64,000 nt of DNA from contig NZ_CP031165.1 of assembly GCF_003344865.1 (NCBI RefSeq), forward strand, positions 806,001-870,000, written 5' to 3'. Both the position numbers and the translations under genes were made by a program. Source of the DNA: Euzebya pacifica. GTDB lineage: Bacteria > Actinomycetota > Nitriliruptoria > Euzebyales > Euzebyaceae. Below the pieces are notes generated by a model. That model was not told where the DNA came from, searched no databases, and worked only from the letters and a program-made list of their open reading frames with translations. Shown one piece after another: positions 5,142 through 60,008 of this stretch. How positions within the stretch are numbered: position 1 is the first letter of the stretch; each line of letters opens with the position of its first letter.

Positions 5142-5195
5142 AACGGGCGATAGCCGAACTCGGGTGAAACGGGCTGTGGCCGAGGTCAGGTGAGG
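5128..5195. repeat. 26-bp tandem repeat spanning the convergent ridA and selB 3' ends
   Basis: Two full 26-base units begin at 5128 and 5154 (shared core CCGAACTC-G/A-GGTGAAACGGGC) and a third, more diverged, begins at 5180 (CCGAGGTCAGGTGAGG). The array contains the stop codon of ridA (5139-5141) and the stop codon of selB (5186-5188). The unit is not a multiple of three, so it does not look like a coding repeat. Possible roles are a bidirectional termination region or a simple slippage expansion; no strong hairpin was found. Confidence 0.75.
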
Positions 5196-7036
5196 TGTCG
5201 TAGGTCGCCATCGCGGGTCGTGACCCCGGTGGTGTCCAGCAGCTCCAGCAGTGGCAGGGCGAACCGACGGGTCGTGTCGAGCGCCTCTCGTGCCTGTGAC
5301 GCCGTGAACGGTCCGCTGTCGGCCTGCAGGGCCGCCAGCCTGGCAGTCGCCCGCTCCAGGGCGCTGGCCGTCATGGCCGCGTCCAGTCCGGGCAGGTCCA
5401 CGAGCTGACCGGTCGACCGCAGGACCGTCAGCAGGTCGTCGTCGGCGCACACGGCCTCGGCGACCTCGGCGAGGGGCGCAGGGCTGGCCCCCTCGGCGTC
5501 CAGCCGTTCCAGCAACGCCACCCTGGCTGACTGCTGGGCCACCGTCAGCCGGGGCTCGTGGCCGGGGGCGGCAACCCCGCCCGGGACGCTGGTCAGCCGG
5601 TCGCGCTCGACGAGCAGGCCGAGCAGCGGGCGGATGACGTCGAGGGGACAGCCGGCTTCCCGCAGCCGCCGTCGGGGAACCTCCGGGTCGACGGCGGGCA
5701 GGGCCGGACGTCGCTGGTGGAACGACACGACGGCGCTGACGGCCAGCCCGCTCCACAGCGCGAACTCCTCCGGGTGCACCAAGTGGTCACCGACCACGAT
5801 TGCGTCACCCGCCGCGATCGCGTCGGGGCCGGCGTTGGCGTCGGCCAGGACGGCCGCGGTCGGGGCGGCCCGTCGTGCCTCGACCAGCAGGCGCACCCGG
5901 TCGGCTGGGGCGTCCACGGAGCCGGCGCGCTCCAGCCGCTGTGCACGGGACCGCCGGGCCGTGGCGCCTCGGACCCGCGGGCCGGGGGCCGGGTCGATGA
6001 CCGTCCCACCTCCCGCGGTCACCCCACGGCCGGACTCGCGCAGCACCACCCGGTCGCCGACGGCCAACGGCAGGGGTCGGTCCATCTCCAGCCGGACCGC
6101 GCCCACGTCGAGGAGGTCCTGGCCGGCCACGGGATGGACGTGCACGCCCACCGCGGCGGTGCCGACGTGTGCGGTCCATGCGCCCCGCCGGCCGACGACC
6201 TGCCCGTCGACGGGGCTCACCAGTGCCTCGACCACCTCGGTGGTTTGCCAGCCGCCGCCCACCACCGCGTCGCCGCGTCCCACCTCGTCGGCATCGACGC
6301 CGGAGAGGTTCATCGCCACACGCCAGCCGGGCCGCACCTCCTCCACGTCCTGCTCGAGCGCCTGCAGCCCCCGCACCCGCACCTCGCGGTCCAGCGGCAG
6401 GACGTGCAGGCGATCACCCACGGCCACCGCGCCACCCTGGAGGGTGCCGGTGACGACGGTCCCGGCCCCGCGGATGCTGAAGGCACGGTCCAGCCACATC
6501 CGCGGACGCCCGTCGTCGGGGACGGCCGGTGCGGCGGACAGCATTGCCGTCAGGGCCACGCGGAGCTCCTCCAGGCCGGCGCCGGTCGTGCTGGACACCG
6601 GCACGATGGGGGCGTCGGCCAGCGCGGTGTCCTGCAGCTGGTCGGCCAGCAGCTCGGCGGCGATCCAGGCGGTCTCCTCGTCGACCAGATCGACGCGTGT
6701 CAGGGCCACGACGGCGTGGGTGGTGCCGAGCAGCTCGAGGATGGCCAGGTGCTCGGCGGACTGCGGCATCCACCCCTCGTCGGCGGCCACGACGAACAGG
6801 GCCGTCCGAACCGGCCCCGCCCCGGCCAGCATCGTCGGCACGAACCGTTCGTGTCCCGGTAGGTCCACGAAGGCGACATCGCCGACGTCGGGCAGCGTGG
6901 TCCACGCGAAGCCCAGGTCGATGGTCAGCCCCCGACGCTTCTCCTCCGCCAGCCGGTCGGGATCGCGCCCGGTCAGGGCGGTCACCAGGGTGGACTTGCC
7001 GTGGTCGACGTGCCCGGCGGTGCAGATGACCCTCAC
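5186..7036 (-). CDS. selB: Selenocysteine-specific translation elongation factor SelB
   Basis: 616 residues, the usual SelB length. N-terminal GTPase: G1 GHVDHGKST, effector region RRGLTIDLGFAW (the GLTID-LG signature separates SelB from EF-Tu), G3 DLPGHERF, G4 TRVD (SelB normally has TKxD), then EF-Tu-like domains II-III with FSIRGAGTVVTGTL. The C-terminal half is Arg/Leu-rich and fits the winged-helix repeats that bind the SECIS hairpin. SelB delivers Sec-tRNA to in-frame UGA codons on the ribosome. The GTG start at 7036 overlaps the clcA stop by four bases (GTGA), so it is translationally coupled to clcA; the open frame upstream of this GTG is not SelB-like. The presence of selB and selA commits the genome to selenoprotein synthesis, and a candidate target gene lies at 59.4 kb. 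Confidence 0.97.
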   Translation of the reverse strand: MRVICTAGHVDHGKSTLVTALTGRDPDRLAEEKRRGLTIDLGFAWTTLPDVGDVAFVDLPGHERFVPTMLAGAGPVRTALFVVAADEGWMPQSAEHLAILELLGTTHAVVALTRVDLVDEETAWIAAELLADQLQDTALADAPIVPVSSTTGAGLEELRVALTAMLSAAPAVPDDGRPRMWLDRAFSIRGAGTVVTGTLQGGAVAVGDRLHVLPLDREVRVRGLQALEQDVEEVRPGWRVAMNLSGVDADEVGRGDAVVGGGWQTTEVVEALVSPVDGQVVGRRGAWTAHVGTAAVGVHVHPVAGQDLLDVGAVRLEMDRPLPLAVGDRVVLRESGRGVTAGGGTVIDPAPGPRVRGATARRSRAQRLERAGSVDAPADRVRLLVEARRAAPTAAVLADANAGPDAIAAGDAIVVGDHLVHPEEFALWSGLAVSAVVSFHQRRPALPAVDPEVPRRRLREAGCPLDVIRPLLGLLVERDRLTSVPGGVAAPGHEPRLTVAQQSARVALLERLDAEGASPAPLAEVAEAVCADDDLLTVLRSTGQLVDLPGLDAAMTASALERATARLAALQADSGPFTASQAREALDTTRRFALPLLELLDTTGVTTRDGDLRHLT

Positions 7037-9135
7037 GCGGTCTCCTCGGGCACCGTTGCCGGGTCGGCCAGGATCACGCGGACGTCCTCGATGGACTCCG
7101 ACCCGGTGAGGAACACGACCTCGTCGCCGGCATGCAGGCGGGTCGTGCCCGACGGGGTCAACGACTCGCCGCCGCGTCGGATACCAGTGACCAGGGTTCG
7201 TTCGGGCCACTCGATGTGCTGGATCTGGCGACCGTCGGCCAACGAGGCGGGCGCAACGACGACCTCGGCGAACCGGGTGTCGGCCAGCTCCCGCAGCCGT
7301 GAACGGTCCTTTCGTTGCTGCACACCCATGCTGCGGGTGATCGCCCGCTGGTAGGCCTGCACGAGGTCGCTGCGGCGGATCAGGCCGACCAGCTTCCCCC
7401 GGTCGTCGGCGGCGACCACGGGGATGCGGCCGACGTTGAGCGCAGCCATGCGGCGCACGGCGCGGAAGACCGGGTCGTCCGGTGTCACGGTGGACACGGT
7501 CGTGGTCGCGATGTCGCCGACCGTCAGGTCACCGGGGTCGGCGTCGCCCAGCCGGGCATCGACGTCGGAGCGGGTAACGATCCCCGCCAGCCGACCGTGG
7601 GCATCCACGACCGGGTAGCCGTGGTGGCCGGTCGCGACGAAGCGCTCGGCGAGCTCCACCACCGGCAGGTCGGCGGTGACGGTGTCGGGATCAGTGGTCA
7701 TGACCTCGCCCACGGAGACGGTCTGCATGACGTCGATGTCGTCGGGTTCGGCGTAGACCACGCCGTCGCGCCGCAGCTGGCGCGTGTAGACCGACCCCTC
7801 CCACAGGCGGTCGGCAAGGAAGGTCGCCAGGCCGGTGGCCAGCATCAGGGGCAGGACGAGCCCGTAGTCGCTGGTCAGCTCGAACACGATCAGGATGCCG
7901 GTCAGCGGGGCCTTGCCCGATGCGCCGAACGCGGCGGCCATGCCGACCAGGGCGTAGGCGCCGGGCTCGATGCCGGTGCCGGGCAGCACGACGGTGGCGA
8001 CGTGGCCCAGCGCACCACCGAGGCTCGCCCCGATGAAGAGGGTGGGTGCGAGCTCGCCCACGGGGTGGCCGCTGGCGATGGAGCTGTTGGCGGCGAGGAT
8101 CTTGCCGACCATCAGCACCAGCAGGAATCCGGCGGCTGCCAGGCCGGTCCCCGGACCGCCCTCGATGAAGGAGCGGACGGGGTCGGTCCCGACCGCCGGG
8201 GACAGCAGCGGCAGCGGGGGGTTGTCGTGCCCGGTCCCGAGGACCTCCGGCAGCCCGAGCGCGAGCACGCCGACCATCAGCCCGCCGATCGCCGGCTGGA
8301 TCCAGTCGGGCAGCGGGCTGCTGGTGAACCGGCGCTTCATCGCCTCCTCCGTGGCCATCGAGGTCCGGGCCACCAGGACGGCGAGGACGCCGAGCGCGGC
8401 GTAGAGCAGCAGCTCGCGGGGGTCCTCCAGGACGTAGTCGCGCTCGACGGCGTAGATCAGCTCGCCGCCGAGCAGCTGACGGCTGATCACCGACGACAGC
8501 ACGGCGGCGATGACGACGACCTGCAACGAGCGCACCTTGAACCCGCCGATGATCACCTCCATCGCGAAGAGCATCCCGCCGATCGGCGCGTTGAAGGACG
8601 CGGCGATGCCGCTGGCTGCGCCGGCCGCGATGAGGGACCGGCTGCGTTCCTCGTCCAGGGCCAGCCACCGTCCACACGTCGACCCGACCATCGAGCCGAG
8701 CAGCACCATGGGGCCCTCGCGGCCGCCCGCAGCGCCGGTGCCGATCGACACCACCGTGCCGACCCCCTTGACAAGCGTGCGCAGCACGGGGATGTGGCCG
8801 GCATGGATGGCGATGGCCCGCATGGTGGCCGTGACACCGGAGTCGTGGCTCTGCGATCCGCTGAGGACCCTGAGCCCACCGACGACGAACCCACCGAGGA
8901 CCGGGACGGCGATCACCTGCCAGCGGACGGGGCTCGGCCCCCAGACGAACCCCTTGACCAGCACGATGAGGGTGACCAGCAGCACGGCGAGGAGTCCGGT
9001 GCCGATACCGACGGACGCGGCGATCGCGAGCATGGCGCCGTCGTTGCGGCTGCGGTCGAGGATGGAAGAGCGCAGCGCAGCGCGACCGGTCCGCGTCAGC
9101 GGGTTCCAGTCGCGCATCGTCGTGGCGGCGCGCAT
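7033..9135 (-). CDS. CLC-family chloride channel/antiporter with CBS pair and RCK_C domain
   Basis: 700 residues from ATG at 9135 (a GTG 63 bases upstream is possible). The first about 430 residues are the CLC membrane domain: GGREGPM carries the gating glutamate, GSGKAPLTGILIVFE follows, and the anion-filter serine is in DSGVT rather than the classical GSGIP. Two CBS domains follow (EVMTTDPDTV to SDVDARL, then GDIATTTVSTV to RRSDLVQAY), which bind adenine nucleotides, and the last about 85 residues resemble the TrkA/RCK C-terminal ligand-binding domain (GTTRLHAGDEVVFL). The chain thus combines transport with two kinds of cytosolic sensor. It overlaps selB by four bases and probably shares its mRNA, an odd pairing that may be fortuitous. 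Confidence 0.93.
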   Translation of the reverse strand: MRAATTMRDWNPLTRTGRAALRSSILDRSRNDGAMLAIAASVGIGTGLLAVLLVTLIVLVKGFVWGPSPVRWQVIAVPVLGGFVVGGLRVLSGSQSHDSGVTATMRAIAIHAGHIPVLRTLVKGVGTVVSIGTGAAGGREGPMVLLGSMVGSTCGRWLALDEERSRSLIAAGAASGIAASFNAPIGGMLFAMEVIIGGFKVRSLQVVVIAAVLSSVISRQLLGGELIYAVERDYVLEDPRELLLYAALGVLAVLVARTSMATEEAMKRRFTSSPLPDWIQPAIGGLMVGVLALGLPEVLGTGHDNPPLPLLSPAVGTDPVRSFIEGGPGTGLAAAGFLLVLMVGKILAANSSIASGHPVGELAPTLFIGASLGGALGHVATVVLPGTGIEPGAYALVGMAAAFGASGKAPLTGILIVFELTSDYGLVLPLMLATGLATFLADRLWEGSVYTRQLRRDGVVYAEPDDIDVMQTVSVGEVMTTDPDTVTADLPVVELAERFVATGHHGYPVVDAHGRLAGIVTRSDVDARLGDADPGDLTVGDIATTTVSTVTPDDPVFRAVRRMAALNVGRIPVVAADDRGKLVGLIRRSDLVQAYQRAITRSMGVQQRKDRSRLRELADTRFAEVVVAPASLADGRQIQHIEWPERTLVTGIRRGGESLTPSGTTRLHAGDEVVFLTGSESIEDVRVILADPATVPEETA

Positions 9136-10291: not shown

Positions 10292-11665
10292 TCACCGGTC
10301 AGGACCACCGGTCGGGTCGCCCGTGGCCGTCGGCAGGGTCGCGCGGAGGGCGTCGACCACCAGAGGGTCGTCCTCGGGCGCGACGGTGCGCAGGTCCACC
10401 AGCACCGCCTCGTCGGCGACCCGCACGATCACGGGCGGGTCGGTGTGGCGAAGCGCCTCGGCGACCCGGAGCGGGTGGTCGAGGTCCAGGCGCAGCACGG
10501 GGCCGGTGACGCCGACACCGGGGGCCGAGCCACCGCCCACCATCGTCGTCGCCTCCACGACGGTCCCCCCGACCCGGCCGCGGAGGGCGTCCACACGGGC
10601 ACGGAGGTCGTCCTCGTCGAGGGCGAGCAGCGCATCGACCGTGCCGCCTGCGCCCCGCCGATGCGCGTCGAGGGTCGCCACGAGCGCGGCCAGCCGGAGC
10701 TTGTCCAGGCGCAGCGCCCGGGCCAGCGGATGACGTCGACAGCGTTCGACGAGGTCGGCGCGACCCACGACAAGGCCCGCCTGGGGTCCGCCGAGCAGCT
10801 TGTCGCCGCTGGCCAGGACCAGGTCGGCGCCCTCGTCGATGGCGGCGCGCATGGAGGGTTCGTCGGCCAGCGCCGGATGCTCGACGGGCGCGAGCAGGCC
10901 CGAGCCGGCGTCGTGCACCAGCGGCACACCGCGGTCCCGGGCCACGTCGGCGACATCGGCCAGCCGCGGTTGGGTGACGAAGCCGTCCTGGGTGAAGTTG
11001 GAGGGGTGGACGGTCAGCAACACGGCCACGTCGTCACCCTGCCGGTAGTCCGCGGCGCGGGTGCGGTTGGTGGTGCCGACCTCGAGGAGGCGCGCGCCCG
11101 AGGAGGCCATGACGTCGGGCAGGCGGAACGACCCGCCGATCTCCACGAGGTGCCCCCGGCTGACCACGACCTCGGCGCCGGCGGCCAGGGCGGCCAGGAC
11201 CAGGACGAGCGCCGCCGCGCAGTTGTTGACGACAAGGGCGTCCTCCGCACCGGTCAGCTCGGCCAACAGGCCATCGACGTGGGTACCGCGGGAGCCGCGC
11301 CGGCCCGTGTCGAGGTCGTACTCCAGGTCGCAGTACCCGGCGGCGTCGGTCATCGCCTGCACCGCGGCCGCGGACAGGGGGGCGCGGCCGAGGTTGGTGT
11401 GCACGACCACCCCGGCGGCGTTGAGGACCCGACGTGGTCCCGGCCGGGGTGCGGTGTCCAGGGCATCGGTTGCACGACAGATGATCGCCTTCGCGTCGTC
11501 GGCCGGACGCCCCTCGGCGATCCGGGCCCGGCTGCGGTCCATCTCGGCGCGCAGCCGCTCGACCACGGGTGTGCGGCCGTGCCGCTCGATCAGCGCCGCC
11601 GAAGCGGTCAGCAGGTCGTCCATCCGTGGCAGGTCGGCGTAGGGGTTGGCTGACGCGTGGGCCAT
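10292..11665 (-). CDS. selA: L-seryl-tRNA(Sec) selenium transferase SelA
   Basis: 457 residues, close to E. coli SelA (463). PLP-dependent fold-type I enzyme that converts Ser-tRNA(Sec) to Sec-tRNA(Sec) using selenophosphate. Seen: AGVVVHTNLGRAPLS near residue 90, the V-V-N-N-C-A-A-A-L segment, and the PLP lysine K289 in LASGDKLLGGPQAG. Start ATG at 11665 (MAHASANPYADLPRMDDLL) matches the SelA N-terminal helix region; the longer open frame upstream is not family-like and crosses a large palindrome. selA is 3 kb from selB on the same strand but separated by the GGDEF gene on the other strand, so they are not one operon. No selD or selC (tRNA-Sec) gene was found in the window. Confidence 0.97.
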   Translation of the reverse strand: MAHASANPYADLPRMDDLLTASAALIERHGRTPVVERLRAEMDRSRARIAEGRPADDAKAIICRATDALDTAPRPGPRRVLNAAGVVVHTNLGRAPLSAAAVQAMTDAAGYCDLEYDLDTGRRGSRGTHVDGLLAELTGAEDALVVNNCAAALVLVLAALAAGAEVVVSRGHLVEIGGSFRLPDVMASSGARLLEVGTTNRTRAADYRQGDDVAVLLTVHPSNFTQDGFVTQPRLADVADVARDRGVPLVHDAGSGLLAPVEHPALADEPSMRAAIDEGADLVLASGDKLLGGPQAGLVVGRADLVERCRRHPLARALRLDKLRLAALVATLDAHRRGAGGTVDALLALDEDDLRARVDALRGRVGGTVVEATTMVGGGSAPGVGVTGPVLRLDLDHPLRVAEALRHTDPPVIVRVADEAVLVDLRTVAPEDDPLVVDALRATLPTATGDPTGGPDR

Positions 11666-11690
11666 GGCGCCGGCCAGCCTCGCACACCTG

Positions 11691-11758
11691 CCCCGTCCGG
11701 CACGATCGGGGCCTCCCTCGCCCATGCCCGACGCAGGCCCCGATCGCGCCCGACGGGG
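11691..11758. repeat. Large interrupted palindrome upstream of selA
   Basis: A perfect 12-bp inverted repeat (CGATCGGGGCCT at 11703-11714 with AGGCCCCGATCG at 11735-11746) is nested inside a 7-bp outer pair (CCCCGTC 11691-11697 with GACGGGG 11752-11758). It sits in the divergent spacer between selA (starts 26 bases away) and the hypothetical gene at 11834. On the selA side the whole structure would be in the 5' leader, so it could act as an operator for a dimeric regulator or as an RNA hairpin affecting selA expression. Confidence 0.8.
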
Positions 11759-11821
11759 GAGGGGGAACGCGACCGAACGCAGCGATTCGTGGGTGGTCCG
11801 TCGTCGCCGGAGCGCGCCTGC

Positions 11822-11827
11822 GACACT
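11822..11827 (+). promoter_or_regulatory. -10-like hexamer of a leaderless start
   Basis: GACACT ends 6 bases before the GTG start at 11834; no Shine-Dalgarno sequence. Confidence 0.35.
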
Positions 11828-11833
11828 GGCCGG

Positions 11834-12535
11834 GTGACGGAGCGGACGTGGGTGCTGGTCGCCGAACGGGGGCTCGAGGACGGCGGGACCGATCTCGTGT
11901 TCCGCGCGCTGCCGGGGCGCAGGCCCCGTGTGCGCTACCACGTGGGGGAGGAGGGGCCGGTCGCATCGATCGTCGAGGGATCACTCGAGGATGCCGTCGA
12001 CGGGGTCCCGCAGGCCGAACGGCCGCTGTCGGCCGAACCCGGCGGCGACGTGGTCGTCGTCGAGGGGGCTGGTCCCCGCACCGACGCCGAGCTGCCCACC
12101 AAGCCGGGCAGCGACGCGCTGGAGCGGCTGCAGCGCGGTCGGGACGCGGTGTGGGACCGCACGACCGTCGATCCACAGGTCCGCGGCCTGCTCGACGCCA
12201 CCTTGTCCGACGGCGACGGGGTGATCGTGCCGTGCATCGGGCGGCACGTCCGCCGGATCGTGGTCACCGACGACAACCGTCTGCTGGTCCTCACCGAGCT
12301 GGCCGACCAGCCCCGCGGCCAGCAGGTCCGTGGCGATGACCTCATCACGGTCGGTGAGGCGCTGTGGCTGACCCCCCGCGAGACCACCGACTCGCGCATC
12401 ACCGTCTATCCCGAGGCCTCGGTCCGCGCCGCCTACGAGGACGGCCGCTGGATGGTGCGGGCGGACCACCCCGAGCAACGCATCACCCTCGCGCTCGCGC
12501 TGGACTTCCCCGCCGAACGGTTCCGCGACGCCTGA
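11834..12535 (+). CDS. Hypothetical protein (233 aa)
   Basis: I do not recognise a family. The protein is soluble-looking, acidic, with no signal peptide or membrane segment. It has an N-terminal part rich in Glu/Val (TERTWVLVAERGLEDGG, RVRYHVGEEGP), a middle containing one cysteine (VIVPCIGRHVRRIVV) and a C-terminal half with alternating hydrophobic strands (ITVYPEASVRAAYEDGRWMV). Codon use is like the neighbours and the frame shows strong third-position GC bias. GTG 11834 is chosen because it follows a -10-like GACACT and begins the regular coding pattern. It is divergent from selA and shares the palindromic spacer with it; there is no evidence that it has a selenium role. Confidence 0.7.
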   Translation: MTERTWVLVAERGLEDGGTDLVFRALPGRRPRVRYHVGEEGPVASIVEGSLEDAVDGVPQAERPLSAEPGGDVVVVEGAGPRTDAELPTKPGSDALERLQRGRDAVWDRTTVDPQVRGLLDATLSDGDGVIVPCIGRHVRRIVVTDDNRLLVLTELADQPRGQQVRGDDLITVGEALWLTPRETTDSRITVYPEASVRAAYEDGRWMVRADHPEQRITLALALDFPAERFRDA

Positions 12536-18056: not shown

Positions 18057-18962
18057 ATGAGCGATTCCAGCTGCTGCGCCCCGACCCGCGCGGGAACCGC
18101 TGCGCCTTCGCCTGCTCCTTCACCGGGCATCGGTGCGTACGACTGTCCGGTCGCCGATCTTCCCGGTGGGGCCTTCGCGATGGGCTACGAGGGACCGTTG
18201 GCCAACCCGGGGGAGGGGGAGGATCCCGTCCGCGAGGTCGAGGTGGCCCCGTTCGCCATCGGGACGACCACCGTCACACGGGCGGCGTTCGCGGCGTTCG
18301 TCGAGGCCACCGGGTACGTGACTGCGGCCGAAGAGGAGGGATGGTCGTTCGTGTTCGCCGACTTCGTCTCCCCCGACGCCAGCGTCCGCGGGCGGGTCGC
18401 TGGGGCTGAGTGGTGGGTGGCGGTCGACGGGGCGAACTGGCGTCATCCCCACGGACCCGGATCGTCGGTGCAGCCAGACGGGGACCACCCGGTGACGCAG
18501 GTCTCCTGGAACGACGCCGGCGCCTACGCCGGATGGGTCGGGGGCCGTTTGCCCACCGAAGCCGAGTGGGAGTACGCCGCCCGGGGCGGCCTGGAGCGCA
18601 AGGTGTTCCCCTGGGGTGACCGGTTCCGGGTCGCGGGCAAGGCTGGCGCGACCATCTGGCAGGGCGACTTCCCCTCCCACTCCAGGAAACGGTTGGCCAA
18701 CCGCGCCACGGTGTCGGTGACCATGCTGCCGCCCAACGGCTACGGCCTGCACCACGCCGTGGGCAACGTCTGGGAATGGACCGCGGACGCGTGGTCGGTG
18801 GCTGATCGGACCGATGGCAGCCGGCGCGTCCGCAAGGGTGGTTCCTACCTGTGCCACGACTCCTACTGCAACCGGTACCGCGTGGCTGCCAGGGACCACT
18901 CCGGGCCCGATGACGCCACCGCCAACATCGGCTTCCGCGTCGCGTTCGACCGGCCGCACTAG
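18057..18962 (+). CDS. Formylglycine-generating enzyme (sulfatase-modifying factor)
   Basis: 301 residues, FGE-sulfatase fold. Both catalytic cysteines of true FGE are present, C266 and C271 in GGSYLCHDSYCNRYR, which bind copper and activate oxygen to turn the Cys of CxPxR into formylglycine. Other family motifs: PGGAFAMGYEG, PVTQVSWNDAGAYAGWVGGRLPTEAEWEYAARGG, FPWGD, GNVWEWTAD and IGFRVAF. Many FGE-like proteins lack the cysteines and serve other roles; this one keeps them, so it most likely activates the sulfatase at 12.6 kb in the cytoplasm before Tat export. An N-terminal Cys pair (SDSSCCAP) is also seen. Separate transcription is likely (own -10-like element). Confidence 0.94.
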   Translation: MSDSSCCAPTRAGTAAPSPAPSPGIGAYDCPVADLPGGAFAMGYEGPLANPGEGEDPVREVEVAPFAIGTTTVTRAAFAAFVEATGYVTAAEEEGWSFVFADFVSPDASVRGRVAGAEWWVAVDGANWRHPHGPGSSVQPDGDHPVTQVSWNDAGAYAGWVGGRLPTEAEWEYAARGGLERKVFPWGDRFRVAGKAGATIWQGDFPSHSRKRLANRATVSVTMLPPNGYGLHHAVGNVWEWTADAWSVADRTDGSRRVRKGGSYLCHDSYCNRYRVAARDHSGPDDATANIGFRVAFDRPH

Positions 18963-59432: not shown

Positions 59433-60008
59433 GTGTCAAGGATCTCCCGACTGCTGCTGGTGGCCGTGGTGCTGCTGGCCGTGGCCTGTGGATCATCTGG
59501 CTCGGAGTCCACGGCCACGGGTTCCGTGGCCACGCCCGCGCCGGCCTCGACCGCGGGGTTCTCGACCGCCGGGCCGGTGGCACCGGGGAACGACGTCCCC
59601 GAGGCGCTGGCCTTCAGCGGGGCGACGCTGGGTGGCGGAACCTTCGAGGGGCCGAGCGTGGTCGGCAACGACCTGTTGCTGTGGTTCTGGGCCCCGTGGT
59701 GAAGCACGTGCAACCGGGAGGCTCCCGAGGTTGCGCAGGTTGCGCAGCTGCTTGACGAGGACCAGCGCATCGTCGGCGTTGCCGGACGCGATTCCATCGA
59801 GGAGATGGAGGCGTTCGTCGACCGCCACGAGCTGTCCGACGTGGTCAACATCGCTGACCCCGACAACGAGGTCTGGGAGCGCTTCGGCGTGTTCGGCCAG
59901 CCAACATGGGTCTTCGTGAACGGCGAGACCGGCGAGACGACCACTCGGTTCGGCGCGCTCGGACAGCAGGGCATCCAGGCCGTCTTCGAATCAGGCGGGT
60001 TCGCCTAG
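59433..60008 (+). CDS. Selenoprotein: thioredoxin-fold lipoprotein (MPT53/DsbE-like) with UxxC active site
   Basis: 191 residues if the single in-frame TGA at 59700-59702 is read as selenocysteine (residue 90). Lipoprotein signal ends L-A-V-A-C with lipidated Cys19; a Ser/Thr/Pro/Ala linker follows to about residue 60. The thioredoxin fold then reads VGNDLLLWFWAPW-U-S-T-C-NREAPEVAQVAQLL, continues (RIVGVAGRDSIEEMEAFVDRH, DPDNEVWERFGV) and has the cis-Pro loop FGQPTWVFVN. This is the pattern of mycobacterial MPT53 and TlpA/DsbE oxidoreductases, where the U position is the nucleophilic Cys of CxxC. Reading on in the same frame for 101 codons after TGA keeps the fold and codon bias. It would act outside the membrane in disulfide or sulfenic-acid chemistry. 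A stop-terminated reading would lack the active site and half the fold. Confidence 0.88.
59700..59735 (+). promoter_or_regulatory. Sec UGA codon with SECIS-like hairpin
   Basis: TGA at 59700-59702. Downstream, CGGGA (59715-59719) pairs with TCCCG (59723-59727) around the loop GGC (59720-59722), and TGCAAC (59709-59714) pairs with GTTGCG (59730-59735, one T-G wobble) with a two-base AG bulge at 59728-59729. The result is an 11-bp stem, 3-base apical loop starting with GG, 17 bases between the UGA and the loop. From memory, bacterial SECIS elements have a small loop with G in the first two positions, 16-37 bases from the UGA; this fits. SelB would bind the loop. Confidence 0.8.

Follow-up and report, generated by a model that had tools for sequence, protein, structure and literature searches.

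Can a reading frame that is interrupted by a stop codon in the middle of its catalytic motif encode a functional redox enzyme? The question is raised by a frame at 59433-60008 of a 64,000-nucleotide stretch of the Euzebya pacifica genome (referred to here as the window). Its translation spans 191 codons in one frame, and the sole stop is a TGA at codon 90, within WFWAPW-U-STC. The original prediction, made from the sequence alone, had placed this TGA exactly at the first active-site cysteine of a thioredoxin-like lipoprotein and proposed that it specifies selenocysteine (Sec), and the position proved correct. So did the codon bias it claimed for both halves: third-position GC is 0.89 upstream of the TGA and 0.86 downstream. 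GTG is a plausible start codon, and the N-terminus of the product combines a signal-like hydrophobic stretch with a lipobox cysteine. Overall, the frame very probably encodes a real selenoprotein with Sec at position 90 (rough probability 0.95). What we observe is a conserved in-frame TGA—one per homologue, in a shared column at which relatives have Cys—together with Sec machinery, a fold match, an RNA structure signal after the codon, and a contrast in gene neighbours. Feature coordinates are collected in Table 1.

Table 1 Features of the selenoprotein candidate locus and of the Sec genes in the window.
Feature	Position	Strand	Details
selB, Sec-specific elongation factor	5186..7210	-	TIGR00475, 309 bits
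selA, Sec synthase	10292..11941	-	TIGR00474, 453 bits
CDS, predicted Sec-containing MPT53/DsbF-like lipoprotein thioredoxin	59433..60008	+	191 aa, UGA read as Sec (predicted)
Lipobox Cys19 (LLAVA-C), predicted lipidation site	59487..59489	+	From sequence; lipobox-like Cys in many relatives, by eye
TGA (UGA), predicted codon for Sec90, first UxxC position	59700..59702	+	Column shared by 20 aligned sequences and L021
Cys93, resolving cysteine of UxxC (predicted)	59709..59711	+	Invariant alignment column
Hairpin A, candidate SECIS, CGGGA-GGC-UCCCG	59715..59727	+	Apical loop 17 nt past UGA
Hairpin B, candidate SECIS, GGUUGCGCAGGUUGCGCAGCU	59729..59749	+	Apical loop ~34-35 nt past UGA; best covariation support
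cis-Pro157 of thioredoxin fold (GQPTW)	59901..59903	+	From alignment; column nearly invariant

The two halves of the frame make one protein, as had been proposed. Pfam matches to AhpC-TSA (8.8e-11) and Redoxin (3.2e-8) run across the TGA, Thioredoxin was matched as well, and a phmmer search against solved proteins returned Mycobacterium tuberculosis (Mtb) DsbF (3ios; 4.8e-28, residues 54-166) and MPT53 (1lu4; 2.8e-23), with the DsbF match likewise spanning the TGA. In both structures, a Cys aligns with the TGA position. An AlphaFold model built from the alignment reached a mean pLDDT of 93, and its top PDB matches were again 3ios (TM 0.90) and 1lu4 (TM 0.86, both by target length). The proposed lipoprotein with a thioredoxin fold and a UxxC motif is thus borne out. 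NCBIfam models gave no match over their own cut-offs for this protein. A PADLOC search gave no hit.

With similarity of sequence and fold over the whole domain, a WxWxPWCxxC motif carrying Sec for the first Cys, and the cis-Pro, the protein belongs to the MPT53/DsbF group. It shares with Mtb DsbF (Rv1677) and MPT53/DsbE (Rv2878c) the thioredoxin-fold family, the WxWxPWxxxC motif, the cis-Pro and an extracytoplasmic location, but differs in the first active-site position, which is Cys in both. The label 'MPT53/DsbE-like' given in the original prediction is better taken to mean the group of Mtb DsbE and DsbF than the E. coli protein named DsbE.

We searched 66 genomes of the class in six frames; 20 of them yielded a total of 21 matches scoring over 90 bits, and every such match contains one TGA and no more. 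The next score down was 59 bits, and stop codons were absent from the weaker matches listed. An alignment of 20 of these sequences—the window gene plus 19 more, one of them a paralogue from G022—places the TGA in one shared column that adjoins an invariant WxPWUxxCxREAP core. The 21st sequence (L021), compared separately, has the TGA at the same position, but NGEAP in the core. Homologues from Mycobacterium, Lentzea and others carry TGC or TGT there; relatives with either Cys or Sec at this site, within conserved flanks, were what the original prediction had asked for as confirmation. The in-frame UGA accordingly lies at a redox-active position for which Cys-containing homologues exist, as in bacterial selenoproteins. 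Further TGA forms, in several other families, came from a search of 396 genomes of the phylum. The prediction had also named a poorly conserved region after the TGA as evidence against itself; what we found was purifying selection, with a downstream dN/dS of 0.15 relative to the nearest relative and of 0.49 and 0.48 relative to two more distant ones. One genome of the same genus (G022:C4, L042:8852) harbors a second TGA-containing paralogue, whereas none was among the matches of the window genome.

The genome encodes the full set of Sec genes, selA, selB, selC and selD. The predicted presence of selA and selB in the window was borne out: the two lie on the minus strand, 48-54 kb from the 59433-60008 gene. 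Loss of selD or selC would have counted against the proposal; both are present elsewhere in the genome, as a tRNA-Sec (65 bits, anticodon TCA) and a selD match (385 bits) whose GCGCK motif marks the Cys form. The same genome contains a formate dehydrogenase-like frame (L198, G000:C1:4298414-4301257) in which the only TGA stands directly before a His codon (HSST) and is followed by a hairpin with a GGUCU loop. Within the window, we also noted an EgtB/SenA-like frame (18057-18962, formylglycine-generating type) that scores under all curated cut-offs.

Across the class, 16 of the 20 genomes with the TGA gene have selA over the cut-off and 19 have a tRNA-Sec match over the cut-off, that of G002 being marginal; these tallies, like those for the phylum, are hand counts in which TGA forms were taken from ~85 bits and Cys forms from ~110 bits. 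The three TGA genomes without a selA match (G006, G040, G044) have tRNA-Sec and assemblies in 340 to 590 contigs each. G011, a case that speaks against the Sec reading, gave no tRNA-Sec match, and its selA matches in two adjacent pieces (G011:C20:345521-346817), yet it retains the TGA gene; a frameshift, an assembly error or decay are candidate explanations for the split. Outside the class, selA was found in 16 of 18 genomes with TGA forms versus 5 of 11 with Cys forms only, and the two TGA genomes lacking it are 73% and 81% complete.

Bacterial SECIS elements have been modeled as hairpins whose loop lies 16-37 nt from the UGA and has a G in its first positions (PMC13188914). An Rfam gathering scan of the window returned no RNA family. 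We folded 35 TGA members and found their hairpins at differing positions, with a split by eye into a group B (n = 23) and a group G (n = 12). Folding was compared with that of synonymous-codon shuffles, and 84 Cys genes served as a comparison; an initial test pooled all loop positions, which were later separated into three ranges for the two groups. In group B, loops at 15-21 nt had a mean z of -1.53 and loops at 33-37 nt one of -2.82, while group G showed one hairpin with its loop at 24-28 nt (mean z -0.86). The Cys genes were near zero in all three ranges. The resulting Sec-versus-Cys p-values (5e-11 for hairpin B, 8e-8 for hairpin A, 1e-4 for the GGUC hairpin) are nominal and descriptive, since ranges and groups were picked after the folds had been seen, and they overstate independence because the sequences are related.

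The same relatedness inflates the covariation counts, in which the second hairpin of group B is paired in 98.6% of cells, with two pairs changed on both sides, and the first in 74.6%; group G reaches 98.7%, again with two pairs changed on both sides, in 11 sequences, counted without L158, whose stem is weak although the GGUC letters are there. Exceptions in the group B scan were L015, without the second hairpin, and L153, L155, L156 and L159, without the first. Hairpin A has about the spacing of the hairpin in the formate dehydrogenase-like gene (18 nt), and the signal of hairpin B is stronger. Constrained, covarying hairpins thus follow the UGA as expected of a SECIS, and either one is a candidate for recognition by SelB. 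Like SECIS elements of the E. coli fdhF type, they lie inside the coding region, 3' of the UGA; unlike these, the clade of the window has two constrained hairpins in tandem, and other clades have one, at another spacing and with a GGUC loop. The sequences therefore suggest a putative SECIS placed differently by clade, with tandem loops at ~17 and 34-35 nt or a GGUC loop at 26 nt. Per-sequence folds and pair counts give different registers, which rules out one common SECIS register across the Sec members.

These data bear on two alternatives to Sec insertion. A lone stop codon usually marks a broken gene, and the TGA might genuinely end translation or stem from a sequencing or assembly error, with a dead downstream half. 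Yet 20 genomes within the class share this TGA and 18 beyond it have TGA forms, the frame is free of any further stop, and selection acts past the TGA at the dN/dS values given above; the conservation of the codon and the downstream selection rule this explanation out, leaving it a negligible chance. Hardly more probable is that read-through of the TGA yields some residue other than Sec, for instance Trp or Cys by suppression. Decoding of UGA by near-cognate tRNAs is known in bacteria, but here the TGA always takes the position of the catalytic Cys, the genomes encode Sec machinery, and the hairpins after the codon are constrained in TGA genes only.

Taking the gene as one for a selenoprotein, we asked how Sec and Cys forms relate to each other. 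In a tree of 35 Sec and 86 Cys rows—built from a short alignment, with many forks unresolved—4 label changes were enough as compared to ~31 in shuffles, and the Sec/Cys label is thus strongly clustered. One group gathers most of the Sec forms, together with two long-branched Cys rows. A second group (f27) includes a Sec/Cys pair from one genome (G208), whose two copies stand in tandem on one strand, ~750 bases apart (L150:859 and L150:1608).

The Cys relatives sampled mostly adjoin a CcdA-like gene; the Sec forms sampled do not. Clustering of neighboring frames placed a DsbD_TM/CcdA-like family (PF02683) near most Cys homologues, and a profile from this cluster found a CcdA-like gene near 68 of 75 Cys loci but near none of the 31 TGA-form loci, among them that of the window, a contrast that is an association rather than proof of uncoupling, given phylogeny, unequal flanks, locus sampling, the fewer lineages contributing Sec loci, and five TGA-form loci (L157, L160, L161, L162, L163) in which the TGA follows WFWAP[TG] instead of WFWAPW. 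The sequences of these five are close to the Sec forms of f27. A CcdA-like neighbor is associated with Cys forms without strictly defining the MPT53/DsbF group. The window gene has no such neighbor: upstream of it lies a gene for a LuxR-type AAA ATPase, and downstream come genes of the DUF4333, ABC1 and DUF480 families. Three DsbD_TM genes lie elsewhere in the genome.

Sec insertion, lipidation, the redox partner and the redox direction are what we infer from this. The SelB pathway would place selenocysteine at UGA-59700, aided by one or both downstream hairpins, and the product would be exported and lipid-anchored via Cys19. Within a thioredoxin domain of the MPT53/DsbF type, Sec90 would attack and Cys93 resolve, the most likely catalysis being thiol-disulfide (selenenylsulfide) exchange outside the membrane, and it is reasonable to expect that Sec would raise the reactivity of such an extracytoplasmic active site. 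Whether the Sec form is reducing (toward a disulfide or a peroxide), and not an oxidant like Mtb DsbE/DsbF, is close to a coin toss; we lean toward a reducing role since Sec-Cys bonds are in general the more reducing ones and the Sec forms lack a CcdA-like gene nearby.

The opposite direction is compatible with the selenoprotein reading, as direction is all it concerns: the same protein would serve oxidative folding as Mtb DsbE/DsbF do, with Sec speeding exchange and a CcdA encoded elsewhere setting the redox state. This is a serious possibility, if one somewhat short of even. It sits poorly with the neighbor counts (0 of 31 versus 68 of 75) and, as general knowledge has it, a selenenylsulfide is expected to be the weaker oxidant. 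What speaks for it are the three DsbD_TM genes and the behavior of the nearest solved relatives, Mtb DsbE and DsbF, which oxidize hirudin and leave insulin unreduced (PMC3853704). The most far-reaching version of the reducing scenario—a lineage-wide Sec branch of MPT53/DsbF that gave up its CcdA partner, works as an extracytoplasmic reductase or peroxidase, and uses a tandem-hairpin SECIS shifted between clades—strikes us as rather unlikely in its entirety.

How new is such a protein? The original prediction spoke of a new-type selenoprotein, of which the selenoprotein part stands and the novelty stands in part. The selenoprotein inventories consulted (PMC13188914, PMC9312934, PMC2398784) do not name MPT53/DsbF proteins with Sec, and a search among open-licence papers found none that joins selenoprotein with MPT53 or with Euzebya. 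UxxC thioredoxin/TlpA-like selenoproteins as such, however, are already catalogued, as 'Thiol-disulfide isomerase-like' (cd02966), 'Redoxin family protein' (PF08534), 'Prx-like thiol:disulfide oxidoreductase' (PF00578) and the GOS 'Trx-like 1' (COG0526) (PMC13188914, PMC9312934, PMC2398784), the GOS survey having included both Trx-like and Prx-like UxxC families. Known from computational catalogues, these share a thioredoxin-like fold and Sec in place of a catalytic Cys; none is named MPT53/DsbF, and it is their descriptions that set them apart (representatives HEU0032618.1, MBA3499694.1). The window protein may thus be a Sec variant within the known UxxC thioredoxin-like selenoproteins, possibly identical with a catalogued entry.

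Since standard gene calling would cut or drop the TGA gene, a redox enzyme that the class keeps in at least 20 genomes may lack annotation. In this family, a single well-studied fold occurs naturally with Sec or with Cys and with or without a CcdA neighbor, so that the reason for keeping Sec at an extracytoplasmic active site can be tested directly, and its hairpins at differing positions form a natural series on what SelB recognition needs. Our searches also returned six TlpA-like frames whose one TGA lies in another context, NFWESWUxxCQxEQPxLNQ (L167, L168, L169, L171, L189, L190), apparently another Sec-containing thioredoxin group, and five TlpA-like frames in which the TGA is preceded by His, APHUxxCRRExP (L166, L170, L172, L187, L188).
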